Assembly: GCF_000169375.1 (NCBI RefSeq)
Contig: NZ_AAXY01000008.1
Span: 1-64,000 of the forward strand
Length of the DNA stretch: 64,000 bases
Direction: 5' to 3'
Source: Marinobacter sp. ELB17
Lineage (GTDB): Bacteria > Pseudomonadota > Gammaproteobacteria > Pseudomonadales > Oleiphilaceae
Below, piece by piece: positions 14,126 to 63,246 of this stretch. Position 1 is the first letter of the stretch. Each line of letters starts with the position of its first letter. Below the pieces are notes generated by a model. The model saw nothing but the letters and a program-made list of their open reading frames with translations, had not been told where the DNA came from and did no database searches. Made by a program: the position numbers and the translations under genes.

Positions 14126-15835
14126 ATGGCACTATTTATGACAGCGTCTTCCACGCCGCCCACGCTCTCCAATCCGTCAACACTTTCCACAACGACGGCG
14201 CCCGCAGCCAGCGCCGGCGACTTGCTGAGTACACGCCAGCGCGGCGAGCTGTTTCGGGTCTATAACTACTATCGTCTGGTGCTGGGCATATTGCTTATCG
14301 GGCTACTGCTGGTGGATACCACCAGTTTTGACGGTCGCTTCCGCCAACTGGACTACTTTCAGGCGGGCGTAATCGCTTATCTGGCCGTAAACGCGTTTAT
14401 AGCGGTGTTAATGATTGCCGGTTTCCAGCCCAGTGAGCGCCACATCAGCGTCTCCATTTTGCTGGATATACTGATTATTCATGGCCTGCTGGTCAGCAGT
14501 TCCGGCATCACCAATGGCATGGCAAACCTGGTGATCGTGTCAGTCGCCGCTGGCAACATCATGACGCCAGGGCGCATGGGTACATTTTACGCTGCCTTAG
14601 CCACTCTCAGTTCACTGGCCATTGCACTTTGGGCCATGCTGGAACAGGGCAAAAGCGCCGATGACGTGGTGCGGGCCGGGTCATTGGGTATTGTTTATTT
14701 TGTGACCGCCGCCGCTTTGCAATACATCGCCATCCGCCTGCGCCGCAGCGAAACTCTTGCCAACAGTCACGCCCGAAGCCTCGCCGAGCTGGAACAGATT
14801 AACCAACAAATCATTCAGCGCATGCGCACCGGTATACTGGTGTTAGACCGTGAAGGCCAGGTTCGCCTAATGAACGCCGCTGCCAACGAGATGCTGGCAG
14901 GGTATACGGTTTCTGCGCAGCTAGCAGAAACTGAAAAAACAGCGGGCGCACACCTTCTGCCCGCAAGCCTGCTAGCAGGATTCAAAAGCTGGCTGCTGCA
15001 CCCGCAACAAAGCACCGCGCCATTTCAGCCCACAAGCACGTTGCCCCCCATACAAGCCACGTTTGCGCACCTGAACCAAAACGGCGGCGAGCTGGTATTG
15101 ATGTTTCTGGAAGACATCAGCCGCGTAACCCAGCAGGCTCAACAAATAAAGCTCGCCTCACTGGGCCAATTAACGGCCAACATCGCCCATGAAATTCGCA
15201 ACCCGCTGGGGGCGATCAGCCACGCAGCGCAGCTCTTGGACGAGTCGCCGAATATGGATACGGCCGACCAAAAGATGCTGGCGATTATTCATCGCCACTC
15301 AAAACGTGTGAACGCCATTATAGAGAATGTGCTGGGTGTGTCTCGCCGCGAAACCTCAGCCGCCGAGCCGATTGATCTACAGCCCTGGTTAGAACAGTTT
15401 CGTGACGATTTTTTGCAAACCCACAGTCAACATAAACCCGTGCTTATCCGCCTTAGCGTCCAGCCTGGCGCTTACCCCACGGCACGTTTCGACACCAGCC
15501 AGTTGGAACAAATTCTGATCAACCTATGCGACAATGGATTACGCTACAGCCAATTGCACTCTGGCGAGGCTAAAATAGAAATACTTGCCGGAATCGCCGC
15601 CGACGGCGCCCGCGCCTACATTGATATCAAGGATTACGGCCCGGGAATTGCCAAAGAAAACACGTCGTCTGTATTCGAACCGTTTTTTACAACCGACAAA
15701 AGTGGCACCGGCCTGGGCCTTTATCTGGCAAAAGAATTGTGTGAGGCGAATCAGGCCCACCTGTCGCTGATTAACGCCGAACGGCCAGGTTGCTGCTTTC
15801 GCATTATGTTTGCCCATCCCGGGCGTGTAATCTGA
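14126..15835 (+). CDS. pilS: Type IV pilus sensor histidine kinase PilS
   Basis: PilS is the inner-membrane kinase that senses pilin levels and phosphorylates PilR to control pilA. About six hydrophobic segments occupy roughly residues 50-205. A PAS-like domain follows (MRTGILVLDREGQVRLMNAA), then the dimerisation/phosphoacceptor motif NIAHEIRNPLG and the ATPase boxes INLCDNGLRY, DYGPGIA and GTGLGLYLAKEL. The start is uncertain: ATG 14126 and ATG 14138 are both possible, and neither has a clear ribosome site. pilR follows after 8 bp, so the two genes form an operon. Confidence 0.92.
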   Translation: MALFMTASSTPPTLSNPSTLSTTTAPAASAGDLLSTRQRGELFRVYNYYRLVLGILLIGLLLVDTTSFDGRFRQLDYFQAGVIAYLAVNAFIAVLMIAGFQPSERHISVSILLDILIIHGLLVSSSGITNGMANLVIVSVAAGNIMTPGRMGTFYAALATLSSLAIALWAMLEQGKSADDVVRAGSLGIVYFVTAAALQYIAIRLRRSETLANSHARSLAELEQINQQIIQRMRTGILVLDREGQVRLMNAAANEMLAGYTVSAQLAETEKTAGAHLLPASLLAGFKSWLLHPQQSTAPFQPTSTLPPIQATFAHLNQNGGELVLMFLEDISRVTQQAQQIKLASLGQLTANIAHEIRNPLGAISHAAQLLDESPNMDTADQKMLAIIHRHSKRVNAIIENVLGVSRRETSAAEPIDLQPWLEQFRDDFLQTHSQHKPVLIRLSVQPGAYPTARFDTSQLEQILINLCDNGLRYSQLHSGEAKIEILAGIAADGARAYIDIKDYGPGIAKENTSSVFEPFFTTDKSGTGLGLYLAKELCEANQAHLSLINAERPGCCFRIMFAHPGRVI

Positions 15836-15843
15836 AGGGAAAT

Positions 15844-17229
15844 ATGACCAAACTCACTGCGCTGATCGTAGACGACGAACCTGACATCCGTGACCTGCTA
15901 GAGATCACCCTCAGCCGCATGGGCTTGAACACGGTCACCGCAGGCACTCTGGCAGAGGGCATCGCGGGCATGCAAAAGCACACCCCAAGTGTGTGCCTGA
16001 CCGATATGAACCTGCCAGATGGCAAAGGCATCGAGCTGGTGCAATGGATTCAGCAGCATGCGCCCAACACGCCGGTCGCCGTTATAACCGCCTACGGCAG
16101 TATGGACATCGCCATTGAATCCTTGAAAGCAGGTGCTTTTGATTTTGTGTCAAAGCCCGTTGAACTACCGCGGCTGCGGGAGCTGGTCAACACCGCCCTG
16201 AAACTGGCCCAAAACCCAGAGCCTGCGCAAGAAGACAATAGCGACCCAGGTTTGCTGCTGGGTAATTCCGCCCAGATTCTTACCCTACGCAACCAGGCTC
16301 GCAAACTGGCCCGCAGCCAGGCGCCGGTCTTTATTCAAGGCGAATCTGGCAGCGGTAAAGAGCTGGTCGCGCGCACCATTCACCAGCAGGGCCCTAGATG
16401 TGATGGGCCGTTCATAGCCGTAAACTGTGGCGCCATTCCGTCTGAATTGATGGAAAGCGAGTTTTTCGGCCACAAAAAGGGCAGTTTCACCGGTGCCGTC
16501 GATAACAAAGCAGGCCTGTTTCAAAGCGCCAGTGGCGGCACCCTGTTTCTGGACGAAATCGCCGACTTACCGCTGCCCATGCAAGTAAAACTGCTGCGAG
16601 CTATTCAGGAAAAAGCGGTACGCCCGGTTGGCGACAGCCACGAAGTGCCAGTCGATATCCGCGTGCTTAGCGCAACCCATAAAGACCTTCCGAGGCTGGT
16701 AAAAGATGGTCTGTTCCGCCAGGACCTGTTCTATCGCATCAACGTGATTGAAATCCGCGTGCCGCCGCTGCGCGAACGCAGCGGCGACATTGCGCTGCTT
16801 GCCAGGCACATACTGCTGCGCATCGCCCGCGAATACGAGTGCACACCCATCGCTCTTACCGATGCCGCCGTCGACTATTTAAAGGGCTATCATTTCCCGG
16901 GTAATGTGCGTGAGCTCGAGAACATATTGGAGCGGGCGTTCACTCTGTGTGACGGCGATTTTATTGATAGCGGCGACCTTCAGCTTGGCAGCTCTTGTAG
17001 CAGCATGGGTACGCCTTCGGTGGCACCGACAGCTGAGGGAATGGCAATGGCGGATATCGAAATTTTGGGGCAAGGCCTGGGCCTCGAGGGATATCTCGAT
17101 AGCATAGAGCGTAAGGCTATTGAGCAGGCGCTGGAAGCAACGCGCTGGAATAAAACGGCTGCGGCGAAAAAGCTGGGGATTAGTTTTCGGGCGTTGCGGT
17201 ATAAGTTGAAGAAGTTGGGATTGGATTAA
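15844..17229 (+). CDS. pilR: Type IV pilus response regulator PilR (sigma54 activator)
   Basis: This 461-residue NtrC-family regulator activates sigma54-dependent pilin transcription when phosphorylated by PilS. The receiver domain has its phosphoacceptor D54 (LTDMNLPDG). The AAA+ domain has Walker A GESGSGKE (166-173) and the sigma54-contact loop GSFTGA (213-218). A Fis-type helix-turn-helix ends the protein (NKTAAAKKLGISFRALRYKL). ATG 15844 has an AAGGGA ribosome site. The start is 8 bp after pilS. Confidence 0.95.
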   Translation: MTKLTALIVDDEPDIRDLLEITLSRMGLNTVTAGTLAEGIAGMQKHTPSVCLTDMNLPDGKGIELVQWIQQHAPNTPVAVITAYGSMDIAIESLKAGAFDFVSKPVELPRLRELVNTALKLAQNPEPAQEDNSDPGLLLGNSAQILTLRNQARKLARSQAPVFIQGESGSGKELVARTIHQQGPRCDGPFIAVNCGAIPSELMESEFFGHKKGSFTGAVDNKAGLFQSASGGTLFLDEIADLPLPMQVKLLRAIQEKAVRPVGDSHEVPVDIRVLSATHKDLPRLVKDGLFRQDLFYRINVIEIRVPPLRERSGDIALLARHILLRIAREYECTPIALTDAAVDYLKGYHFPGNVRELENILERAFTLCDGDFIDSGDLQLGSSCSSMGTPSVAPTAEGMAMADIEILGQGLGLEGYLDSIERKAIEQALEATRWNKTAAAKKLGISFRALRYKLKKLGLD

Positions 17230-17836: not shown

Positions 17837-18406
17837 ATGCGATATTTCATATCAATGCGGGGCTTTTCTTTGCTCGAATTGCTAATTGTGCTTTCCATTT
17901 TTTCGATACTTACAACGATTGCATTTGCTAATCTCACCCCCTCCATTGCAGAACATCAGACCGAAAGAAAAACCAGAGATCTGTTGAAGTTATTTAACTT
18001 AGCCAAAACCACTGCGATTAGCGACAGCATATTAACGACAATATGCCCAATCGATGATGGTGGTCAGTGTTCTAAAAACTGGAACCTCTATCCGATCGCA
18101 CTGTTCCTTGACCCCAACAATGACAGGGAGCTCAAGAACACAGGAGCGCTAATTCAAATACTCCCCCAAACTCCAAACGTGCGACTTGATGTTGCTCCCA
18201 ATTGGAAGAGTTACTTCCAATACGACAGATTAGGCACATCCCATGGCAGCATGGGCAATGTGTCAATTTGCAATACAGGAAGTACGCTTTACTCCAGCAG
18301 GCAATTGGTAATCAGCCTTTCTGGGCGCGCCCGCCTGAGCGTGGACCGTAATTATGACGGAATAGCTGAGCGCAGTGATGGCACGACTGTCCAGTGCTCT
18401 GACTGA
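17837..18406 (+). CDS. fimT: FimT/GspH-type minor pilin
   Basis: A 189-residue prepilin with a short leader and a type III cleavage site, MRG^FSLLELLIVL, with the conserved +5 glutamate, then the hydrophobic helix and a GspH-like globular domain. Four cysteines (TTICPID, GGQCSK, SICNTG, VQCSD) could form two disulfides. FimT-type minor pilins are periplasmic or pilus-tip components, and some bind DNA during uptake. The start at 17837 has an AAGGA ribosome site. The gene runs toward pilE, opposite to the fimU-pilE operon, and follows the pilin relic. Base composition is more A/T-rich than the housekeeping flanks. Confidence 0.8.
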   Translation: MRYFISMRGFSLLELLIVLSIFSILTTIAFANLTPSIAEHQTERKTRDLLKLFNLAKTTAISDSILTTICPIDDGGQCSKNWNLYPIALFLDPNNDRELKNTGALIQILPQTPNVRLDVAPNWKSYFQYDRLGTSHGSMGNVSICNTGSTLYSSRQLVISLSGRARLSVDRNYDGIAERSDGTTVQCSD

Positions 18407-18454: not shown

Positions 18455-18877
18455 TTACCAACAGCTAGCGCTAGTCCCCGTTTTCTGTCCTATCTGATTA
18501 ATAGTGAACGTAGCGCACTGGGCGTCGTCCGCCTGACTACCAACAGCCGTTGCCGTAATCGAATAGCACGTGAATGGAGGCCCACCTGCACAAGCGGCGT
18601 TACCCACTGACAAAGCATAGTAGCCTTCAGGAGAGCTTTGGCCGTCGCTGTTGGTCACCAACGCACCAAGATCCCCACTGCCGGCATAGGAGTTGTTTGT
18701 CGCAAAAAATTGTTCCTGACGAGCTGCCGCTTCCGACAGCGCAATTTTTGCGTCTGACCGGCGTGTTTTTTGAATACTATCTTGATAACTCGGTAAGGCA
18801 ATCGCTGCAATGATGCCAATGATAGCCACCGCTATGAGCAGTTCAAGAAGCGTAAAACCCTGACTTCGACACTTCAT
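18455..18877 (-). CDS. pilE: Type IV minor pilin PilE
   Basis: A 140-residue prepilin with leader MKCRSQG and cleavage before [15 protein letters not shown], then the conserved long N-terminal helix ([21 protein letters not shown]) and a globular domain with a C-terminal disulfide loop (Cys near residues 125 and 139). ATG 18877 has an AGGAG ribosome site 7 nt upstream. The frame is open 15 codons further, but with no ribosome site. It is the last gene of the fimU-pilV-pilW-pilX-pilY1-pilE set, matching the P. aeruginosa order. It should act with PilY1 in the tip complex that primes pilus assembly. Confidence 0.88.
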
Positions 18878-18928
18878 TACGTTCTCCTGGGAAAGGCGAG
18901 GAGTTGTTTGACTCCTCGCCAATAGAGA

Positions 18929-21900
18929 TTATTGGAGGTTCACTTCTCTCCAAGACTGGCGGGAGCTGCTGGTAGAACCTACCTTCGCGTCGGTGAGCTG
19001 CAACTGCCCGGTCGAACTCTGGGTTACTATGGTTACAATGCTGTCGCTACTATTCCCAAGCTTGCTGGCCGCATCGTTGCTGACAGCAGTTGGCCCCGAA
19101 GCTAATCCTTGGCCGAGATCTATATACGGCGATGCAACTTCATCATCCGCAACCTTACTGGAATCTTCAGGTGAGAAGACTTCGAAAGGTGGTGCCACAC
19201 CGGCCTGAAAATCAATACCGAATAGACGGCTTGTGCCCTCAGGTTTACATGACAGCGCAGACGGCGTGTATTCCGTAAAGAACAACACCGAGCGCACCGA
19301 ATCCGACGAGCTTAGGTTGCGCCCCGTCGGATCGGAGCCGTCTTTTTTGAGATCTCGGTACCAACCTAGCCTTTGACGCGGCAACTCGTACTTGAGCTGA
19401 TTGAAACTGTCCACGATCGTACCATCAGGCATACTGACTGAAGAGCCGGATTCTGATATAGCACCAGTATCTCTCACCTCGATACCGGTCACATTCTTCA
19501 GTTCGCCAGTAGTCACGGTAGCGTCCGTCTCGGTTCCAGAGGCGACAGGCTCGTAAATACCAAAATATCGATTTTGCTCTGTCGTAACGTTATCTTCGGC
19601 GGCGAAAAGGCGACCTGTACCGAAATAGACCCAACGGCGGCCTTGACTGTCTTTGGTCAGATACGGTCTGGCAACAACCGGACGATTGGTATCAATCAGC
19701 GTGCTTGTCGTGGTCAATCCGGTCAGATCAAGGCGTAATCGCTCCACGGATCCGGTTGAAGTCGCTGCGGGATCACCCGATATAACACCAAAGTAGGCAG
19801 TATTGTCTACATAGTTGTCTTCCCAGTCCACAACGCCTATATCTCCGACAAAACTATTGGAATATCCCCCACCCAGCGTCTTGGGATACCCGCCGAGGAA
19901 CGACCGAGCCTCCAGGTCATAGACGAAAATCTTTGCCTGCTGTTCACTAACTACCTTTTCAATATCCGTCGGTCCAGACCCAAAGACCAGATACCAGTTG
20001 TTGACAGCCGGTGACTCATAGCTCGTTCCTTGCACCCGCTGCTTGAACAACGCTGGAACACTGGTGGTGAACCCAAGGTCAGGGTGTGAAATTTCAGCCA
20101 TCAACTCAGGCGGCTGCTCTGGATCAGTAACGTCCATTACGATGTAGGTTGATCGCAGCGTCTGGTCATCCGTGCCGTCCGCATTCGAATCCACCTGAGT
20201 CGTGCCGCCGCCCAAGCGCATTCCCACCACCAATACTGTTCCCCAGCCATTCGGATGCGTTGCGTCATCAGGAAACACATTTGCATCAAATGTAAGAGGT
20301 TGCCCGTCAACGTAATATGTATGCGCATAGCTAGGGTTGGTCAACCACTGCAGATGTGGAAGCGCCGCCTTAGGAATATATGACCACAATTCAGAACCCA
20401 ATGGGTGAGCCACTGTGGTGGTGGCGTCGGCAAAGCTGTTAGTCGTTTCAAAACTCCTCGCGGAATCATTCCAGAAACCAGCGTTAAAGGCATGCAACAT
20501 CCCATCATTGGCGCCCACGTAAACCACGTTGCGGCGATCTTTATACTGCGCTCTGAATTCCGCGTAAGTACTGTCCTGGTGCAAAACGTCGTAGTTGCTG
20601 GAAGGCTTTGCAACCAATGCAGGCGTCGAGTTTACGATATCTCCCAAGCGCCTAACCTCCGAGCTCCCATCTCCGTCTAGATCAATAGTCCGATTACGAA
20701 ACCCGGCGATACCTTCTTCACCACGGATAAAGCGAACCACTTTGTTGGAAAGTTCACCACTTCCCGTATCCAGATAATTCAGGAACGTATCGTCAAACGC
20801 CGTGCGGTAGACAATTTTAGCTGAGTTCAAAGCAGTCAACTTGTTATTAAGCGCATCAAAGGCTGTGACACGGTCCTCTTTCGCTAATGCCAGTTGATCC
20901 TCTGCCTCAGAAACATCAGCAGCTGATGCGCCCTCCGATTTCAATCTGTCCAACTCCGCCTGCTTCAGCAAAACACTATCACTGGCTGCTCCAGCCTGTG
21001 CCTGTGCCACGTCATATTCGCTTTGCGCGGTGTCCAAGTCAGATTTAGCAGCCTGTTCCGCAGCCACTAGGCCGGCAAGATCTGTGCTTAGCAATGCCGT
21101 GAAGCCAAGTGTATTCTTGCCATCAATGGAAGATAGAATGTAGCGCCCGGTTGATGCGTTGGCACTGTAGACTCTCTGCGTGACAGGGTCAGATATCGCA
21201 CTTAATTGGTCCTGCGCCCGCCAGAGGGACTTAAGATCTTCCAACCTAACGGTTTCGACAGGCGTACCGGTGCTTGTATCCGGAGGGGTTAGACTGTCTC
21301 CAGATAAAAATAGCTCAACTTCGGTTTTATCATCGACGACATTGTAGGAATAGATTGCAACCCGATCGACATCGTAGCCATCAAGCTGGGCATTTTGGTT
21401 CGTGTCCTCTCGAAGCAGACCAAATCGGTCAATAAATAAGCCAAACAGACTTCCGGTCCAAGTCACCTCGGCTCCAGCGGCATCCTCGATTGAAGGACTG
21501 TAGAGCGCTTGAAAAACAGCACCCTCGCCACGAGCATTGTTTGCCAATACGGAGGCTGCCGAAGAGCTTGATGACCGATTGAAAATGTTGAGAAAAATCG
21601 ATCCGAGTGCCGCGTCAAGCGTAGTCGAGTCATTAGCAAATAACGTTGCTTTTGTGCCACCAGCAATCGCAATCTTGTTCAATAAAGACTTATCAACACC
21701 CGTTGGCAGTCCAAAGCCTACAACGTAGGTGCGCACGCCTTGGCTGAGCAGTGCCGCCGCTTCATCAGCTACGGCATCAACCGCAGACGTTACATCCGTA
21801 GTCTTGGAACCAGACTTGTTTACCGAGGGCAAGCCGTCGGTCACCAGCACCACATAGTCCTGTGTGCCACAGAAATTGGGGGTAGGCGCCAACGTTGATA

Positions 21901-22885
21901 CGCCAGAAGCTGCCTCCCCGTTTGACAACGTTCCCCCAAAATACTTACTGGCGCTTTCCAGTGTTCCAGCCAAGGGTGTTAGCCCGGCGTTACGCAGCGG
22001 GGTATCCGATGATGAAGAAAACTGCGACGTATTAAGTTTGTTCAACAATCGAGTCTTATGGGCGGCGTCCACGTCGTCGATCGCAACGTGTAACATTCCC
22101 TGCCCTGGTGACGAATTAGAAAACCATGACAAGCTCACATACTGCCATGTCAGGTAGGTACCGAAATCAAGAATGTTTTGGGCAAAGTCGCTATCGGACG
22201 CCTCAAATCGACTACTAAACAGGTACTGTGAAAACCCCGCAGCGCCAGAATCACTCGTATTCGTTTTTCTCTGGTAGCAGTCATAATTATCCCAAGGACC
22301 CGAAGCAGTCTCAGAGCCGTTATCAAAGTCTGCTGTACTAGAATAACAAAACGCATTACCAAGATTACTCGATGAATAGAAAGGCAGAGCGACGTTATAG
22401 TAAATATAGGCGCCAGAATTTGTTGGATTACTTACTCGGTTCCGTTTTGTCACAGACGCACGATCACCTGTGAACGTCGCATCGTAGTTATTCGGATTAA
22501 AGCTCGCATCGTATTGACTATCGTGCAAATACCTCTTATTGATACCCGATTGCTTATAGGCCATTAAACCGATTCGCGTTCGATCACCGAAATTGTTCAC
22601 TATGGCTTTAACAGCTGTTCGGGCAATCTCTGATTTACTGCCCGAATTAGCACTTCCGACGGCGCGCCCTGTGGGCGCTTCGTCCATACTGTTGGAGTTG
22701 TCCAAGACAACCAGGACGTTGGGCTTATCGCCAGAGGCACTTACATTAATTAACGGGGGAACCGCTACAAAATCGGCGGCATTTTCAGCGTAAGAATAAC
22801 TTGCTGAAAGAAGTAGGCTTAACGTGGCCGCAAGGCCAGTCAGCAACCTTGCTGTAAAACTCGGAATCCAAAAAAAGAATGACAT
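18929..22885 (-). CDS. pilY1: Type IV pilus tip adhesin/assembly factor PilY1
   Basis: This 1318-residue secreted protein has a signal peptide (about residues 1-33, ending SYSYA). Its N-terminal von Willebrand A-like domain has a MIDAS-type motif, DNSNSMD (62-68). The C-terminal beta-propeller (about 745-1300) includes NVVYVGANDGMLHAF and a calcium loop DSNADGTDD (899-907), the counterpart of the P. aeruginosa PilY1 calcium site. Two more D/N-rich loops lie at 494-507 and 735-743. Residues about 606-692 form an Ala/Gln/Asp-rich heptad-like coiled coil between the two domains. PilY1 sits at the pilus tip, promotes extension against retraction, and mediates adhesion and surface sensing. It is transcribed with the minor pilins. 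Confidence 0.92.
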   Translation of the reverse strand: MSFFFWIPSFTARLLTGLAATLSLLLSASYSYAENAADFVAVPPLINVSASGDKPNVLVVLDNSNSMDEAPTGRAVGSANSGSKSEIARTAVKAIVNNFGDRTRIGLMAYKQSGINKRYLHDSQYDASFNPNNYDATFTGDRASVTKRNRVSNPTNSGAYIYYNVALPFYSSSNLGNAFCYSSTADFDNGSETASGPWDNYDCYQRKTNTSDSGAAGFSQYLFSSRFEASDSDFAQNILDFGTYLTWQYVSLSWFSNSSPGQGMLHVAIDDVDAAHKTRLLNKLNTSQFSSSSDTPLRNAGLTPLAGTLESASKYFGGTLSNGEAASGVSTLAPTPNFCGTQDYVVLVTDGLPSVNKSGSKTTDVTSAVDAVADEAAALLSQGVRTYVVGFGLPTGVDKSLLNKIAIAGGTKATLFANDSTTLDAALGSIFLNIFNRSSSSSAASVLANNARGEGAVFQALYSPSIEDAAGAEVTWTGSLFGLFIDRFGLLREDTNQNAQLDGYDVDRVAIYSYNVVDDKTEVELFLSGDSLTPPDTSTGTPVETVRLEDLKSLWRAQDQLSAISDPVTQRVYSANASTGRYILSSIDGKNTLGFTALLSTDLAGLVAAEQAAKSDLDTAQSEYDVAQAQAGAASDSVLLKQAELDRLKSEGASAADVSEAEDQLALAKEDRVTAFDALNNKLTALNSAKIVYRTAFDDTFLNYLDTGSGELSNKVVRFIRGEEGIAGFRNRTIDLDGDGSSEVRRLGDIVNSTPALVAKPSSNYDVLHQDSTYAEFRAQYKDRRNVVYVGANDGMLHAFNAGFWNDSARSFETTNSFADATTTVAHPLGSELWSYIPKAALPHLQWLTNPSYAHTYYVDGQPLTFDANVFPDDATHPNGWGTVLVVGMRLGGGTTQVDSNADGTDDQTLRSTYIVMDVTDPEQPPELMAEISHPDLGFTTSVPALFKQRVQGTSYESPAVNNWYLVFGSGPTDIEKVVSEQQAKIFVYDLEARSFLGGYPKTLGGGYSNSFVGDIGVVDWEDNYVDNTAYFGVISGDPAATSTGSVERLRLDLTGLTTTSTLIDTNRPVVARPYLTKDSQGRRWVYFGTGRLFAAEDNVTTEQNRYFGIYEPVASGTETDATVTTGELKNVTGIEVRDTGAISESGSSVSMPDGTIVDSFNQLKYELPRQRLGWYRDLKKDGSDPTGRNLSSSDSVRSVLFFTEYTPSALSCKPEGTSRLFGIDFQAGVAPPFEVFSPEDSSKVADDEVASPYIDLGQGLASGPTAVSNDAASKLGNSSDSIVTIVTQSSTGQLQLTDAKVGSTSSSRQSWREVNLQ

Positions 22886-22917
22886 AACAGTCTCCAGAGA
22901 CGGGATTCGTCCCAGAT

Positions 22918-23247
22918 TTAATAAATCGTGACTTCTATCAAGTAATCATTCCTAAACTTGAGCATAACTTCAGATTTCGACTCACTGACCGGTTGGCTCT
23001 TTTCCCTTTGATCCCGCACTTTCGCAGCGGCCGGAACCTCAAACACGCCAACCGACGTAATCAATTTTCGATCATTGGAATATTCAATAAGGTCACCACG
23101 CAAGAAACGCTCACCGGAAACAGAAGACGGTGCTTCTGTCACGGAAGTTATCGTGGTTACTGCTCCAACACCCGATGACAAAAAGCCTAATCCAACCAAA
23201 CAGGCTGAACAAAAAAGCATCCGCTTGAGACTTCCGCGATTTTTCAT
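22918..23247 (-). CDS. Small secreted protein of unknown function in the minor-pilin operon
   Basis: I do not recognise this 109-residue protein. It has a clear Sec signal peptide (positive start MKNRGSLKR, hydrophobic core, likely cleavage after GVGA near residue 29). A short soluble domain rich in Ser, Glu, Arg and Val follows, ending in EVMLKFRNDYLIEVTIY. An AGGAG ribosome site precedes the ATG. It lies between pilX and pilY1 on the same strand, with 30-32 bp gaps on each side, so it is almost certainly in the operon. The P. aeruginosa operon has its small extra gene, pilY2, after pilY1 rather than before it. A role as a PilY1 or PilX partner in the periplasm is inferred from place alone. 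Confidence 0.7.
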   Translation of the reverse strand: MKNRGSLKRMLFCSACLVGLGFLSSGVGAVTTITSVTEAPSSVSGERFLRGDLIEYSNDRKLITSVGVFEVPAAAKVRDQREKSQPVSESKSEVMLKFRNDYLIEVTIY

Positions 23248-23277
23248 GATTACTCTCCTGATGAACCACTAACGTGA

Positions 23278-23889
23278 TCATTGCAATACCTTGAAGGTAG
23301 ATTGAAGCATCACCCGGGCGCCACCATTGGCACCTTCAACAAAGCTCGATATGCGATACATGTACGCCCAGTCTGCACCGTAAGGTGGCGGAGCAACCGG
23401 CGTTGCTGACGCGTTAGGGTCGGCCACGACGTAGCACAGGAACTCGATGATGTAGCGCGGTTTGTTCGTTAACTCTGGAAAATTCTGGCTGGAGGCCACT
23501 GACCGAGCACTAGAAGACCAGGTCGCAGGGTCCCTATGAGGTTCAGAGCTACTGTCAAACACACAAGCGCTGGCGGAAGAGTATGTGCCGTTAAAGCACC
23601 TGCCCCCATTACAAATATCAGTGAAACAGTCGCCCCCGGCGCCGCATCCCGCTGCAAAGTCTGCTTCATTGAACCCTTGGCTTATGGATTGCGCCGCCCT
23701 TTCACCCTCGGCTAACACCGCTTCCGCTGCCTGGAACGCACGTTGTCGATCCTGATAATTGGTCGCCATTTTCTGGCCAAGGGATACGCCGCCAATAGAG
23801 CCGACCGCTACGATCGTCAAAATCAGAAGCAATAAGAGGCTTACCAACAAGGTATTACCGCGCTGTGACTGCATCATGACGTGGCTCAC
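23278..23889 (-). CDS. pilX: Type IV minor pilin PilX
   Basis: A PilX-type minor pilin of 203 residues from GTG 23889, which overlaps the pilW stop by 4 bp (GTGA); ATG 23877 or 23874 would shorten it. The leader ends QSQRG and the mature chain starts [19 protein letters not shown]. As in other PilX proteins it lacks the usual Phe+1/Glu+5 pair. Several cysteines lie in the globular part (CGAGGDCFTDICNGGRC). It belongs to the tip-priming complex with PilV, PilW, FimU and PilY1. Confidence 0.85.
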   Translation of the reverse strand: MSHVMMQSQRGNTLLVSLLLLLILTIVAVGSIGGVSLGQKMATNYQDRQRAFQAAEAVLAEGERAAQSISQGFNEADFAAGCGAGGDCFTDICNGGRCFNGTYSSASACVFDSSSEPHRDPATWSSSARSVASSQNFPELTNKPRYIIEFLCYVVADPNASATPVAPPPYGADWAYMYRISSFVEGANGGARVMLQSTFKVLQ

Positions 23890-24950
23890 TTATTACGGAT
23901 TTTGATGGTTGACACAAACTGTTGACGCAGAAATCGGTCATCCGGCGTGTAGTCTGTTCCCGCAAAACGGAACGGTTGTGGCTGGCTGGCAATCGCAGCC
24001 AGAGACCTTACCAGCATGTTCAGTCGCACCACCGTCACATCACTCCAGTCAGTTACGTCATCCGAATCAACATAACGCTCCGGGGCGCCGTCACCGTTCA
24101 AATCTTCCCCGTAAATGAACTGTATATTCTCAACACCCTGAACCAACTCTTCACTGGCGACCGCAGCAGAGCCGGACTGTATCACTCGTCGATACAGCGA
24201 AGGCACGCCGTTAGGGGCTAAATCAACGTAATACCCGTGGGCTTGAGCCCGCATCACAGTGGCGCCACGATCAGGGCTATACCGATAGTCAACCGAAGGA
24301 GCGACGCCACAACTGGAACCCAGTGCTTTTTGACAGTTACCCGGACTCACGCTTCCGCCCGGATTATGATTCACCTTGTTCGTTCCATTGCCAGTGTGCT
24401 GCATAACAGAAGTGTGGTTGCAGTCGGTAACGACGAGTATGTCGCCATTCGCGAAATCGTGTGAGCCGGCAACATCAATCACTGCGGATGAGGTATTGTG
24501 CGAAGTTACATTGAATTGCCCCGTTGAGTCGTCGGCCCGCCGTATGGTCAGGAGGTCACTTCCGGGAACCGCCGCCGCATTCACAACCGGACCTAAGCTA
24601 TTCGGAAACTCAGGGCTTGGATAACCTGCGTCGTCGCCATCCCAGCCACGAACCGCTCTGGTGAAGTCGATTTGCCACCCGCTGCCACCAACGGGGTTGA
24701 GAGTGTTCACAAATTTACCTTCTGTACTGCACCCCCAAAAGCCCGCCATTCGCACATCTCTGTTCAATTGGTCCAAGGCAAAGCGAGCATTTTCCTGCAT
24801 CCACCCGAGTTCCTCGTTGAAGGCGTAAGTCCGCTTTGAGGAAAGATATACCTGAGAAGCTCCCAGCAATAGCAGTAGCCCCAGCCCAATGGATATCATC
24901 AACTCAATCAAGCTGAAACCTGACTGCTTTTTTGGTAAGAGAAACATCAT
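23886..24950 (-). CDS. pilW: Type IV minor pilin PilW
   Basis: A 354-residue prepilin, longer than other minor pilins, as is normal for PilW. The leader is MMFLLPKKQSG and the mature start FSLIELMISIGLGLLLLLG, with Glu at +5. The region WMQENARFALDQLNRDVRMAGFWGC is the PilW signature. The large globular domain carries several cysteines. It is 7 bp downstream of pilV and overlaps pilX by 4 bp. PilW joins the minor-pilin complex that initiates pilus assembly and presents PilY1. Confidence 0.9.
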   Translation of the reverse strand: MMFLLPKKQSGFSLIELMISIGLGLLLLLGASQVYLSSKRTYAFNEELGWMQENARFALDQLNRDVRMAGFWGCSTEGKFVNTLNPVGGSGWQIDFTRAVRGWDGDDAGYPSPEFPNSLGPVVNAAAVPGSDLLTIRRADDSTGQFNVTSHNTSSAVIDVAGSHDFANGDILVVTDCNHTSVMQHTGNGTNKVNHNPGGSVSPGNCQKALGSSCGVAPSVDYRYSPDRGATVMRAQAHGYYVDLAPNGVPSLYRRVIQSGSAAVASEELVQGVENIQFIYGEDLNGDGAPERYVDSDDVTDWSDVTVVRLNMLVRSLAAIASQPQPFRFAGTDYTPDDRFLRQQFVSTIKIRNK

Positions 24951-24957
24951 CTAGCCC

Positions 24958-25473
24958 TCAAAAAGCGGTCCGAAACGAGACCTGTTTAATAATGGGAGTC
25001 CCACTGCCGATCTTGTCTTGCCCTGCCTTCGTCGCAGCTTCAACGCGTGCGTTGTCGAATTGAAGGGTGACTATAAATGCCGGTTCTGCGCCGCCGGTTT
25101 TAACAATCGATCCTTTGCCATCAGGGAGCACCGCCGCCAGATCCGCTCTCCAACTGCCTAAGTCGAAATCTGCTATTTGAATCGCAGTGCAATTCGCCGA
25201 CGGTGAATAGCAATTGCTGAACGAAGGCACCGCATCAGAAAAATCGATCTGATAGTTGTCAACCTGCGACTGATTCGCTCGCATGCGATCCATTATGTCG
25301 TATGCCAAAACATTCGCTCTGGATTGATAGAGGACACTCTGATTCATTTGAAGAGCGCGAGTTTGTAGTCCAGCGATACCGAGGATACCAACGGAAAGGA
25401 CCAACAAAGAGACCAACACCTCTATCAAACCGACACCGGTAGATCGCCTAATACTTTTATGCTCTTTTAGTCT
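24958..25473 (-). CDS. pilV: Type IV minor pilin PilV
   Basis: A 171-residue prepilin if read from GTG 25473, which has a GGAG ribosome site 9 nt upstream. The alternative ATG at 25506 adds 11 residues but has no ribosome site and gives an unusually long leader. Cleavage after RRSTG leaves VGLIEVLVSLLVLSVGILGIAGLQ, the PilV/GspI-like N-terminus with Glu at +5. The motif MNQSVLYQSRANVLAYDIMDRMRAN is typical of PilV. The gene lies between fimU and pilW. It is a core minor pilin of the priming complex. Confidence 0.88.
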   Translation of the reverse strand, partial: RLKEHKSIRRSTGVGLIEVLVSLLVLSVGILGIAGLQTRALQMNQSVLYQSRANVLAYDIMDRMRANQSQVDNYQIDFSDAVPSFSNCYSPSANCTAIQIADFDLGSWRADLAAVLPDGKGSIVKTGGAEPAFIVTLQFDNARVEAATKAGQDKIGSGTPIIKQVSFRTAF

Positions 25474-25518
25474 CACTGTTCGTTTCTCCGCTCTACTTTT
25501 AATCATCGAATGTCGTTG

Positions 25519-26079
25519 CTAAGGACAGGTCAGATCATTGCCAAGAATGTCTTCCCGGATACTGTTCGAGTCTGTATCTGATGCAAACCGCAGCGTTCCG
25601 GAGCTCTGAATAATCAAGCCGCGAGCACCAGAAGCCTGATTGTCTTCGCCACAAACCTTAAAGGTACCTCTTTGGTCAACCGTGTATCCCTGCCCATTAA
25701 ATTGAATAAAGCCAGCGCTGGCGTCACTCCAAGTCATAGAAAAGTCAGTATTCACCGTGTCACGAACCTGCAGCATCGTCTCCCCGATGGTATAGGCTCC
25801 GTCAGCGTTCGCGTCACCAAATACAATCCAACCCTGCTGCCAATTTCCGCCACAGGAAGCCTGATTAGCACTGGCACAAATAGTGACGACCCGATTTCGT
25901 TTAATCGCTTCTGATCGCGCATAGCGAATAGCGCCAGTAGCTTCCTGCAAGTATGAAGTCGTGCGGTTCGAGGAGAGCAACGATATAAAACTGGGCGAAG
26001 CAAGTGCTACCAGAATACCGAGCAATGCAATTGTCACTAAAAGCTCAATGAGCGTAAAACCAAGTGTTTTTCTAATCAT
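25519..26079 (-). CDS. fimU: FimU/FimT-type minor pilin (first gene of the minor-pilin operon)
   Basis: A 186-residue GspH-like prepilin: leader MIRKTLG, mature FTLIELLVTIALLGILVALASPSF, then RYARSEAIKRNRVVTIC and GGNWQQGWIVFGD, the strongly conserved GspH/FimT core. Cysteines near residues 79, 86, 152 and 185 may pair. Its first place in the minor-pilin set matches fimU in P. aeruginosa, so I prefer that name over fimT. It follows ispH by 194 bp. I found no convincing sigma54 or sigma70 promoter in that gap. Confidence 0.88.
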   Translation of the reverse strand: MIRKTLGFTLIELLVTIALLGILVALASPSFISLLSSNRTTSYLQEATGAIRYARSEAIKRNRVVTICASANQASCGGNWQQGWIVFGDANADGAYTIGETMLQVRDTVNTDFSMTWSDASAGFIQFNGQGYTVDQRGTFKVCGEDNQASGARGLIIQSSGTLRFASDTDSNSIREDILGNDLTCP

Positions 26080-26273
26080 AGGTAACTACATCCGGTTAGT
26101 CCGCTGTTAGAAAGTATCAGTATTTCCGGGCATTGGAATGCGTTAGATGATGGGCGGTGCAATTCAAGGGATAAGCGGCGGAAACTCTAAAAATTGTGGA
26201 TTTACTCACATTCTCACCGCGGCTTCTATAACGGTCGGCGAGCACAAACCATCACATTTACGGATCGGCGGCA

Positions 26274-27230
26274 TCAGTCGTCTATTTGGACAGCATCAAT
26301 CCGCAACTCTTTCGGCATAGAAAACACAATATTCTCTTCACGCCCGGCAATCTCCTCCGGCACATCACCGCCGAGTTCACGCAGGCGGGCAATCACGGCA
26401 CTTACCAGTACTTCAGGGGCCGAAGCTCCAGCGGTTACGCCGATGGATTTTTTGCCGTCTAGCCAGGCGGGGTCAATTTGTGCGGCTTCGTCGATCAGAT
26501 AGGCCGGTGTGCCCATGCGCTCCGCCAGCTCGCGCAGGCGGTTGGAATTGGAGCTGTTGGGGGAGCCCACCACCAGCATCAGGTCGCACTCGTCGGCCAT
26601 TTGTTTGACGGCGTCTTGGCGGTTTTGGGTGGCGTAGCAGATGTCGTCTTTGCGCGGGCCTTCAATTTTTGGGAACTTTGCCCGCAAGGCATCGATTACC
26701 CGCGCGGTATCGTCCATCGACAGGGTGGTCTGGGTGACATAAGCCAGTTTTTCAGGGTTTTTGACGTCCAGCTTTGCTACGTCGGCTTCGTTCTCCACCA
26801 GGTAGATATCGCCGCCGTTGGCAAAGTTATACTGACCCATGGTGCCTTCCACTTCCGGGTGGCCATGGTGGCCAATCAGCACGCATTCGCTGCCGTCACG
26901 GCTGTAACGCATGACTTCTATGTGAACTTTGGTGACCAGTGGGCAGGTAGCGTCGAAGACTTTCAGGCCGCGGTCGGCTGCCTCTTTTTGCACGGCTTGA
27001 GACACTCCGTGGGCGCTGAAAATCACCAGTTTGTCGTCTGGCACTTCGCTTAGTTCTTCCACGAAGATGGCGCCGCGCTTGCGCAGGTTATCTACCACGG
27101 ATTTGTTGTGCACCACTTCATGGCGTACATAAATAGGTGCGCCAAACACGTCCAGAGCGCGATTAACGATATCAATGGCGCGGTCGACACCGGCGCAGAA
27201 TCCACGGGGGTTTGCCAGACGAATTTGCAT
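26274..27230 (-). CDS. ispH: 4-hydroxy-3-methylbut-2-enyl diphosphate reductase
   Basis: IspH performs the last step of the MEP isoprenoid pathway, reducing HMBPP to IPP and DMAPP with a [4Fe-4S] cluster. The 318-residue chain has the three cluster cysteines in [10 protein letters not shown] (C12), [12 protein letters not shown] and [11 protein letters not shown]. The start [12 protein letters not shown] is the family standard. It ends the ribF-ileS-lspA-fkpB-ispH run, 27 bp after fkpB. Confidence 0.96.
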
Positions 27231-61179: not shown

Positions 61180-63246
61180 TTAACGAACCAGGTCGTTTTT
61201 GATGATTTTCGGGGTAATGAAAATCAGCAGTTCGCTACGCAGCTCGGTAGTCTGAGTGCGCTTGAACAACCTGCCCAGGTAGGGAATATCGCCCAAGAAC
61301 GGTGTCTTGGTGGTGGTTTCGGTGTTGGTCGATTCGAAAATACCGCCCAAAACGATGGTTTCACCGTTGGCGACCAGCACCTGAGTCGTCACCGAGTTGG
61401 TGTTGATGGCCGGGCCGTTGGGGGTGTCTTCGCCACGGGAGTCCTGAGTCACCTCAAGGTCCATGATGATTTTGTCATCCGGCGTGATCTGCGGCGTTAC
61501 TTCAAGCGACAACACAGCTTCTTTAAATGATGTGCTGGTGGCGCCGCTGCTGCTGGCTTCCTGAAACGGAATTTCCTGACCCGATTTAATAGACGCCGTC
61601 TGGCGATCCGCGGTAACAACTCTAGGCTGGGACACGATTTCCGCTTTGCCATCGCTTTCCAGCGCAGACAGCTCGAGGTCGACCAGGAAGTCACCTCCGC
61701 TGAACCCAACGGCAAACGATGAGGCGCCATCGCCAGATACACCAAGATCTACCGCCAGAGCACCCGGGAAGGTAACCGAGGTTGAATTTGCAGCCCCGGC
61801 GCCCATTACACCACCGACTGTTTCTAAAGAACCGCCTACCACCGTCGAGTTATTACCATTATTGCCATAAGATGCACCGCCCCAGCGAACGCCCAGGCTC
61901 TCGGCCACGTTGGTTTGCGCACGCACAATCCTGGCTTCAATAGAAACCTGACGCACAGCTACGTCCCAAGTGGACACCAGGCGGCGAATTTCGTTTAGCT
62001 TTTCAACGGTTTCACGCACACTGATGGTGTTAGTTCGGGAGTCTGAGGAAATGAAACCGCGACTGGAAATCAGCTCTTGGTCGGCCTGCACCAGCGCTAC
62101 TACTTCGGCAGCTTTTGCGTAATTGACCTGAATGATGTCCAAACGAAGCGGGGCAAGCTCGGCGATCTGCTTGGTTGTTTCCAGTTCCAGCCGTTCACGG
62201 GCGGCGATTTCATCGGCGGGCGCTACCAATAATACATTGCCAATCTGGCGCTTATCCAAACCTTTGGTTTTCAAAATTAGATCCAACGCCTGATCCCAAG
62301 GCACATTCTGCAAGCGCAGCGTGATGCTACCACCAACGGTATCGCTGGCCACCAGATTCAAACCGGTAAAGTCGGCAATCAGCTGAAGTACCGAGCGAAC
62401 TTCAATGTCTTGAAAGTTTAGCGAGAGCTTGTCGCCGGAATATGGGAACTTCTCTTCGCGACGGACTTCTGCTTCTTCTGCGCTCAGCCGTTCAACACTC
62501 ACGGTAAATTCGTTGCCAGACTGGTACGCAATGTAGTCATAGTCGCCTTCCGGACGAATCTCTATAACCGCACTGCCACCCTCAATAAAGGTGTCGATCC
62601 GTTGTACCGGCGTGGCAAAATCTGTCACGTCCAAACGGCGGCGCAGGCGCTCGGGCACAGTCAGGTCCGGCATGGTCAGTCGAATTTTTCCGCCCAGTTC
62701 GCTCAGGTTAACCTGAGTCGTCGCACTGGCCAGACGCACAACCACACGGCCTTCACCTTGTGCACCGCGACGAAAATCAACGTCTGCCAACGCCGGCGCT
62801 GCGTCCGCTGACGAGGCAACAGGGCTGGCACCGTCAGATCCCGCAACGTCACTGGTTACATCTGCGGAATCGCCGCCAATAATCATCACCAACGCGTTGT
62901 TATTGCGCTGAGTGGTGTAAGGAACCAGCTCAATCAGGTTGAAAATAAGGCGGGTACGGTCGTTGGTTTCAACAACGGTCATGCTTTGCGCATTTCCGCT
63001 GCCCAGCGGCAAGCTGCGGGCACCCAAGGCACTGGTGGTGTCTTTCAGGTCTACCGCAATACGAGCGGGGCGCTCAATGGTGTAACCCGTCGGTTCAGGC
63101 GGTGGGCCGTCAAACTGCAAAGTCACTTCCAGCCGATCCCCGGGTAAAGAGGAAAACGACACATCCTGCAAAGTGGCAGCGCTAGCCAGGCTGGACAACA
63201 ACCCAACGGTTACCGCGCAGACAATTACGTTGAGTTTTTTGAACAT
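61180..63246 (-). CDS. pilQ: Type IV pilus secretin PilQ
   Basis: PilQ forms the outer-membrane channel through which the pilus passes. Read from ATG 63246 it has 688 residues and a standard signal peptide (MFKKLNVIVCAVTVGLLSS, cleavage after SASA-like SLASA). A GAGG ribosome site lies 6 nt upstream. A second ATG at 63297 overlaps the pilP stop (TAATG) and would add 17 residues before the signal. Two AMIN domains (about 25-110 and 150-260) bind peptidoglycan. An STN/N0 domain (LSLNFQDIEVRSVLQLIADF), an N1 domain and the C-terminal secretin domain (PFLGDIPYLGRLFK) follow. Confidence 0.94.
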   Translation of the reverse strand: MFKKLNVIVCAVTVGLLSSLASAATLQDVSFSSLPGDRLEVTLQFDGPPPEPTGYTIERPARIAVDLKDTTSALGARSLPLGSGNAQSMTVVETNDRTRLIFNLIELVPYTTQRNNNALVMIIGGDSADVTSDVAGSDGASPVASSADAAPALADVDFRRGAQGEGRVVVRLASATTQVNLSELGGKIRLTMPDLTVPERLRRRLDVTDFATPVQRIDTFIEGGSAVIEIRPEGDYDYIAYQSGNEFTVSVERLSAEEAEVRREEKFPYSGDKLSLNFQDIEVRSVLQLIADFTGLNLVASDTVGGSITLRLQNVPWDQALDLILKTKGLDKRQIGNVLLVAPADEIAARERLELETTKQIAELAPLRLDIIQVNYAKAAEVVALVQADQELISSRGFISSDSRTNTISVRETVEKLNEIRRLVSTWDVAVRQVSIEARIVRAQTNVAESLGVRWGGASYGNNGNNSTVVGGSLETVGGVMGAGAANSTSVTFPGALAVDLGVSGDGASSFAVGFSGGDFLVDLELSALESDGKAEIVSQPRVVTADRQTASIKSGQEIPFQEASSSGATSTSFKEAVLSLEVTPQITPDDKIIMDLEVTQDSRGEDTPNGPAINTNSVTTQVLVANGETIVLGGIFESTNTETTTKTPFLGDIPYLGRLFKRTQTTELRSELLIFITPKIIKNDLVR

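Follow-up and report, generated by a model that had tools for sequence, protein, structure and literature searches.

Type IVa pili carry the adhesin PilY1 at their tip, and to our knowledge little is known about the maturation of its large, variable N-terminal half. In Marinobacter sp. ELB17, a small open reading frame (ORF) lies inside a minor-pilin operon, in the slot between pilX and pilY1. What does this gene encode, and does it belong to the adhesin that follows it? We investigated these questions in a stretch of 64,000 nucleotides of this genome (contig NZ_AAXY01000008.1, positions 1 to 64,000; hereafter the window) and in related genomes.

A small secreted protein gene in the tip operon

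The minus-strand ORF at 22918-23247 is confirmed as a real gene. It starts with ATG, encodes 109 residues and has 11 homologues; we named this family of small secreted proteins A5. The sequence upstream of the ATG (...CATCAGGAGAGTAATCATG) contains a good Shine-Dalgarno site (AGGAG), 7 nt before the start. The N-terminus of the protein, MKNRGSLKRMLFCSACLVGLGFLSSGVGA, combines basic residues with a hydrophobic core and V-x-A and reads by eye as a Sec/SPase I leader. The putative signal peptide covers about residues 1-30 (23158-23247, minus strand), which have low pLDDT values in the structure prediction. After the leader, the protein has no Cys, His or Trp. These features bear out the original prediction of a 109-residue Sec-exported protein with a strong ribosome site inside a minor-pilin operon.

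All genes of this operon are on the minus strand. The first is a FimT/FimU (GspH-type) minor pilin (25519-26079; PF12019, 2.7e-21), followed by the minor pilins PilV (24958-25506; PF22150, 1.6e-8; named from its position), PilW (23886-24950; by domain scan) and PilX (23278-23889; PF14341, 1.9e-13, and PF13681, 1.2e-11). Behind the small gene are PilY1, the presumed partner (18929-22885, 1318 aa; PF05567, 1e-16, and VWA, 4e-6), and, as the last gene, a PilE-like pilin (18455-18922; PF16732 and PF07963; named from its position). The spacers are 30 nt from pilX to the small gene and 32 nt from the small gene to pilY1. In our scan of 22700-26500, the sole sigma-70-like site (26476-26447) is upstream of the operon, with none inside it. 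The five terminator-like sites in the same region are at background level (4.3 in shuffled sequences); one of them is inside the small ORF on the same strand (23210-23190, 8 pairs, 3 G-C). The window's PilY1 is the only PF05567 match in the source genome, a PilQ match over the cut-off is found at 61198-62436 in the window, and the genome has two PilT-family matches over the cut-off. Thus, this operon is likely the sole type IVa pilus tip set of the genome. A second GspH/FimT-type pilin gene (17837-18406, plus strand) is convergent with the tip operon, and near it lies a response-regulator-like ORF (15790-17229, plus strand) with an AAA+ region recognised by eye.

In Pseudomonas aeruginosa PAO1, a figure legend gives consecutive accessions for pilX-pilY1-pilY2-pilE (PMC10374093), which fits the earlier statement that no gene occupies the pilX-pilY1 slot there.

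A divergent family upstream of pilY1

The small protein had been called unrecognised, and we found no Pfam or NCBIfam family for it. Searches of Pfam, NCBIfam and PHROGs with the window protein gave nothing above noise (best E 0.038 and 0.19). Nor did a scan of the first nine of the twelve members known at the end of this study assign a family in Pfam (best E 0.057) or NCBIfam (best E 0.038); at E up to 1, the Pfam matches of the nine are two noise hits only. Neither a PF07963 match nor an N-terminal prepilin methylation motif, as in type IV pilin/GspH proteins, was found in the small protein. Searches by tblastn in plasmids and with the small protein sequence alone in 60 other genomes of the family returned no match. 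BLAST of the other 123 genomes of the genus returned none except one match that we judged to be due to chance (G081; E 0.0066, 36% identity over 50 residues of a 58-aa frame).

We then investigated the pilY1 loci. PilY1 matches are present in 54 of the 61 family genomes, and 60 surrounding regions were taken from them; a script was used to read their pilX-pilY1 gaps, and at L038 no closed PilY1 frame is present. A profile scan found A5 in none of the 60 regions, and the profile likewise matched none of the 21 other genomes of the genus from which PilY1 regions were taken. The original prediction had counted absence from close relatives with functional pili against itself, and absence, from relatives with pilY1 genes and perhaps working pili, is what these genus loci show.

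When the window PilY1 was compared with 390 genomes of the order, the best matches were in other families. Reading the gaps at 20 loci with a window-like PilY1 revealed eight divergent homologues of the small protein, 19-30% identical to the window copy (for example, VTTVGTYQITAGVTVNDRRP in L127 versus ITSVGVFEVPAAAKVRDQRE in the window). Since the 20 loci had been selected by PilY1 similarity, the pilY1 adjacency of these eight proves nothing alone. A nine-sequence profile run over the 390 genomes gave 12 strong matches (E < 1e-17), one copy per genome, in five families. Three of them (G329, G349 and G387) were new to the profile, so that nine copies were found via PilY1 and three by the profile alone. 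Matches in G200, G335 and G355 (E 0.005-0.007, frames of 285-306 aa) were judged to be chance and are outside the count of 12. All 12 copies lie directly upstream of pilY1, ending 19-119 nt before its frame, and each of the 12 genomes has a window-type PilY1 match; the proposed check of whether homologues always neighbour pilY1 is thereby answered for 12 of 12 copies. The 12-row alignment has an invariant G and an invariant D-x-R, and the T of T..G is present in at least 90% of the rows. The conserved T64, G67, D79 and R81 fall within the OB-like domain described below.

The 12-row profile had no match in the 368 other genomes drawn from the rest of the class. A scan of genome contigs with a three-row alignment retrieved two loci, in a Pseudomonadales MAG record and the record of Gammaproteobacteria bacterium 42_54_T18, which are identical to G182 and G425. 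One family is represented by 15 genomes, of which seven have the small gene; of the remaining eight, G443 alone shows a window-type PilY1, in a gene that runs off the end of its contig.

Judged by sequence similarity, the small protein is a member of a divergent family and not an orphan. Because the relatives in the genus carry another PilY1 type together with another small gene or none, the gene is lineage-specific and no general part of the pilus. Among the literature matches listed (titles and abstract starts), no protein in the pilX-pilY1 slot of gammaproteobacteria appeared, and within the reach of our searches both the A5 family and its association with a single PilY1 type are new.

Coupling to one PilY1 variant

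We compared 100 PilY1 frames that resemble the window PilY1 in their C-terminal part; 12 of them have the small gene. Thirteen frames align with residues 1-400 of the window PilY1 above 50 bits, namely the 12 with the gene and G443, where the contig end cuts the locus off; the 50-bit line was set after the values were known, and with L192 (40 bits, no gene), which falls under it, counted in, the proportion becomes 12 of 14. Within the C-terminal lineage of the window PilY1, presence of the gene could be assessed for 53 PilY1s: it accompanies all 12 that have the window's N-terminal (vWFa) variant and none of the other 41. Against an N-terminal profile built from the first 650 residues of the 12 PilY1s, these 41 match from about position 405-420 on (448-450 in four short ones) and show before that start only patches of up to 20 bits. 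The stretch of about residues 60-290 (22016-22708, minus strand; boundaries approximate, from the profile comparison) is clearly matched only in PilY1s with the small gene, plus the truncated G443 from position 264. This stretch falls within a split vWFa domain, for which the best match is 340-422 with VWA and 57-112 with VWA_2; the whole part that the 41 lack is located in and around that domain. Acinetobacter ComC/PilY1-type adhesins are described as differing by vWFa-domain insertions (PMC10374093).

In a tree of C-terminal PilY1 sequences, the window sequence groups with G258, G182, G425 and G443 (100/99). The six f28 sequences form another group (100/100) that joins the window group weakly (84/66), and the two f5 sequences are unplaced. 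A single clade for all PilY1s with the small gene is not rejected (p-AU 0.311), so the 12 of 12 are not 12 independent observations, and the link between the small gene and the vWFa variant may represent one evolutionary event. Two genomes with a small-gene PilY1 (G166 and G243) also carry a second PilY1 of 796-856 aa that lacks the N-terminal part (L140 and L191), with no small gene beside it.

Probable cassette exchange at ispH

The ispH gene (26274-27230, minus strand) forms the native flank of the tip cassette and is 88.6% identical to its same-genus copy. The cassette proteins behave differently. FimT, PilV, PilW, PilX and PilY1 have their best scores with other-family loci carrying the small gene, and PilE has its best score with the truncated sister L125. 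PilW is 49.9% identical to its counterpart in another family versus 31.6% for the best genus locus, PilX 49.7% versus 35.8%, and PilY1 scores 1212 bits versus 431 bits. The other-family loci had been picked by PilY1 similarity, which is a bias, but under plain descent the genus loci should still win. The comparison suggests that the pilins, the small gene and PilY1 were probably exchanged as a block at ispH. Alternatively, selective retention might have produced the same distribution.

Within the genus, the ispH locus carries at least four kinds of tip cassette, as distinguished by small gene and PilY1 type. Two same-genus genomes (L033 and L078) have two PilY1-type frames per region with pilins upstream of each, that is, tandem tip operons.

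Other small genes in or near the slot

Among the 21 other genus genomes, ten have a secreted CxxC protein in the pilX-pilY1 slot, seven have a protein behind pilY1, at the PilY2 position (six by the limits of the script and L082 by coordinates), and four have neither (L073, L074, L081 and L090). Occupation of the pilX-pilY1 slot by a small gene is thus not unusual.

The CxxC proteins are about 125 aa long, contain an invariant CxxC (not CxxCH, the haem site of cytochrome c) and precede short PilY1s of 945-1066 aa (L033, L034, L075, L076, L077, L079, L084, L086, L089, L091 and L092). The family is found in 33 of 124 genus genomes, and a search of the PDB with it gave nothing significant. Proteins at the PilY2 position are encoded at L039, L042, L044, L045, L083, L085, L087 and others. 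They had no sequence match to PilY2 of P. aeruginosa (PDB 3TDQ) at E up to 1 or up to 10, so the label 'PilY2-like' refers to their position. Their weak matches (E 0.02-0.3) include periplasmic OB proteins of the SilF type, with an FXR1 domain ranked first (E 0.02); the SilF matches would fit an OB-like fold for these proteins as well.

No locus is common to two of the three lists (A5, CxxC and positional PilY2-like), and the positional PilY2-like profile has no match in the source genome. In hhalign comparisons, A5 aligned with 12 positional PilY2-like proteins at 21% probability over 24 columns, and at 2.2% over 23 columns with the leaders removed, when 2 of 150 column shuffles scored as well. 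A5 and the CxxC family aligned at 18% (2 of 150 shuffles as good without leaders), and 3 of 150 shuffles equalled the comparison of the CxxC and positional PilY2-like families without leaders. These shuffle figures are rough, as one shuffle reached an absurd score of 132.7. With the leaders removed, hhalign near shuffle level gives no sequence link between the three families.

Predicted fold of the small protein

We then investigated the structure of the small protein by prediction. AlphaFold2, run on the window protein with a three-row alignment, places strands at residues 46-56, 61-64, 67-70, 76-79, 92-99 and 102-108. Together with the fold matches and alignments, this model suggests a six-stranded OB-like domain at residues 46-108 (22924-23112, minus strand). 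The pLDDT averages 70.4 and is close to 90 in most of the domain; two of the five models reach 70, the other three only 48-51. For the homologue at L159, all five models reach 70.7-73.8, and the best one has six matching strands.

Foldseek gave no significant match for either model (best E 0.14 and 0.15), and many of its rows are what we take to be known OB folds; PilY2 appears with E 0.37 and 0.47 and is not among the best 50 rows for the L159 model. By VIA-align, the window model matches CusF (Z 5.8), EF-P (Z 5.8) and PilY2 3TDQ (Z 4.9; 55 residues, 2.8 Å), and the L159 model matches CusF (Z 5.8), EF-P (Z 5.6) and 3TDQ (Z 4.4; 58 residues, 3.4 Å). The models point to an OB-like protein for which PilY2 is one match, tied with unrelated OB folds and with no special kinship evident.

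Two other relationships were considered and rejected. A sequence similarity to CfaE (E 0.007, a 46-position stretch) concerns a piece of a larger fimbrial subunit and has no positional support. CusF-like metal binding is unlikely, since the ligands, presumably His, Trp and Cys, are missing after the leader.

Proposed role and alternatives

We lean slightly towards the small protein being an exported periplasmic accessory protein for maturation or stability, dedicated to one PilY1 lineage. It would be translated from the mRNA of PilY1, shortly ahead of PilY1 itself, enter the periplasm through Sec and bind PilY1 at its N-terminal (vWFa) half soon after export. Binding might help PilY1 to fold, to load metal or to escape proteolysis, and PilY1 would then cap the priming complex of FimU, PilV, PilW and PilX. 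By analogy, the small protein would work like TfcP, the stabiliser of PilY1.1, and perhaps like PilY2. We propose this role because the gene is upstream of pilY1 in 12 of 12 copies, goes with one vWFa type, encodes a leader recognisable by eye and is separated from its co-directional neighbours by short spacers, and because TfcP sets a precedent. Several points speak against it: 41 PilY1s of the same C-terminal lineage do without the gene, the gene could equally go with the cassette pilins, and an OB fold, itself predicted, points to no particular function. The original prediction of a chaperone or tip partner is partly supported: secretion and pilY1 adjacency in 12 of 12 copies fit it, and the lineage-specific distribution and a slot that is not unusual qualify it, as does the predicted OB-like fold with solved PilY2 among its matches.

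Instead, the gene might be a diverged pilY2 that has changed place from behind pilY1 to in front, encoding the same OB-fold protein with the same role. The predicted OB-like fold of two members, with 3TDQ among the matches, would agree with such a move, as would the mutual exclusion of A5 and the positional PilY2-like genes, whose profile has no match in the source genome, and the short alignable stretch of the profiles. We consider it unlikely, as the gene position differs, 3TDQ scores no better than CusF, EF-P and eIF5A in VIA-align and is insignificant in Foldseek, and the hhalign probability collapses without the leaders and is equalled by the CxxC family. Still less probable is a structural tip component that remains attached to PilX or PilY1 when the pilus is extended: its gene lies between pilX and pilY1 and was seemingly co-inherited with the whole pilin cassette, but Pfam shows no pilin leader or adhesin domain in the protein. 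A bystander, fixed once in the cassette by chance and either doing something unrelated to PilY1 biogenesis or doing almost nothing, would suit the low identity of the eight homologues to the window copy and the possible single origin. However, a dispensable gene should decay, and this one has held its position in 12 genomes from five families, with an invariant G and D-x-R, which makes the bystander very improbable.

The dedicated accessory protein that we favour can be extended, tentatively, to a broader picture in which many PilY1 types each have a secreted helper in exchangeable cassettes, matched to the vWFa half. The helpers could be OB-like, CxxC or, behind pilY1, PilY2-type proteins. 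If this is true, an adhesin swap would require a chaperone swap. With a further helper family in this slot that accompanies a single PilY1 type, the need of PilY1 variants for matched helpers becomes testable.

Comparison with known systems

CusF, which with SilF represents the periplasmic OB proteins that bind metal, is among the top structural matches of A5 (Z 5.8), but A5 shares only 12% identity with it, has none of the His, Trp and Cys residues after the leader and is encoded among pilus genes. The CxxC protein of the same genus occupies the same slot, is similar in size and leader and goes with its own PilY1 type (945-1066 aa), whereas its sequence is different and includes the conserved CxxC.

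PilY2 (PA4555 of P. aeruginosa) is likewise a small protein of the pilY1 operon and is among the structural matches, and we know of no account of how it acts. In P. aeruginosa, piliation reportedly depends on it (PMC10191384). The PilY2 gene lies after pilY1, between pilY1 and pilE, whereas the A5 gene lies before pilY1 in 12 of 12 copies. 3TDQ has no match to the A5 profile at E up to 10, and its fold match to A5 is no better than those of unrelated OB proteins.

We know of only one characterised PilY1 helper, TfcP of Myxococcus xanthus. Its gene is described as lying directly before pilY1.1 and as confined to this type of cluster (PMC13190605), and the protein as a noncanonical cytochrome c that is required for PilY1.1 stability at low calcium and was not detected in purified pili (PMC8833165). 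A5, predicted to be OB-like, lacks Cys and His in the part that follows the leader and thus differs from this cytochrome c. Both proteins are nevertheless encoded directly upstream of pilY1 and accompany one PilY1 type only, which for A5 means 12 of 12 copies and a single N-terminal type.
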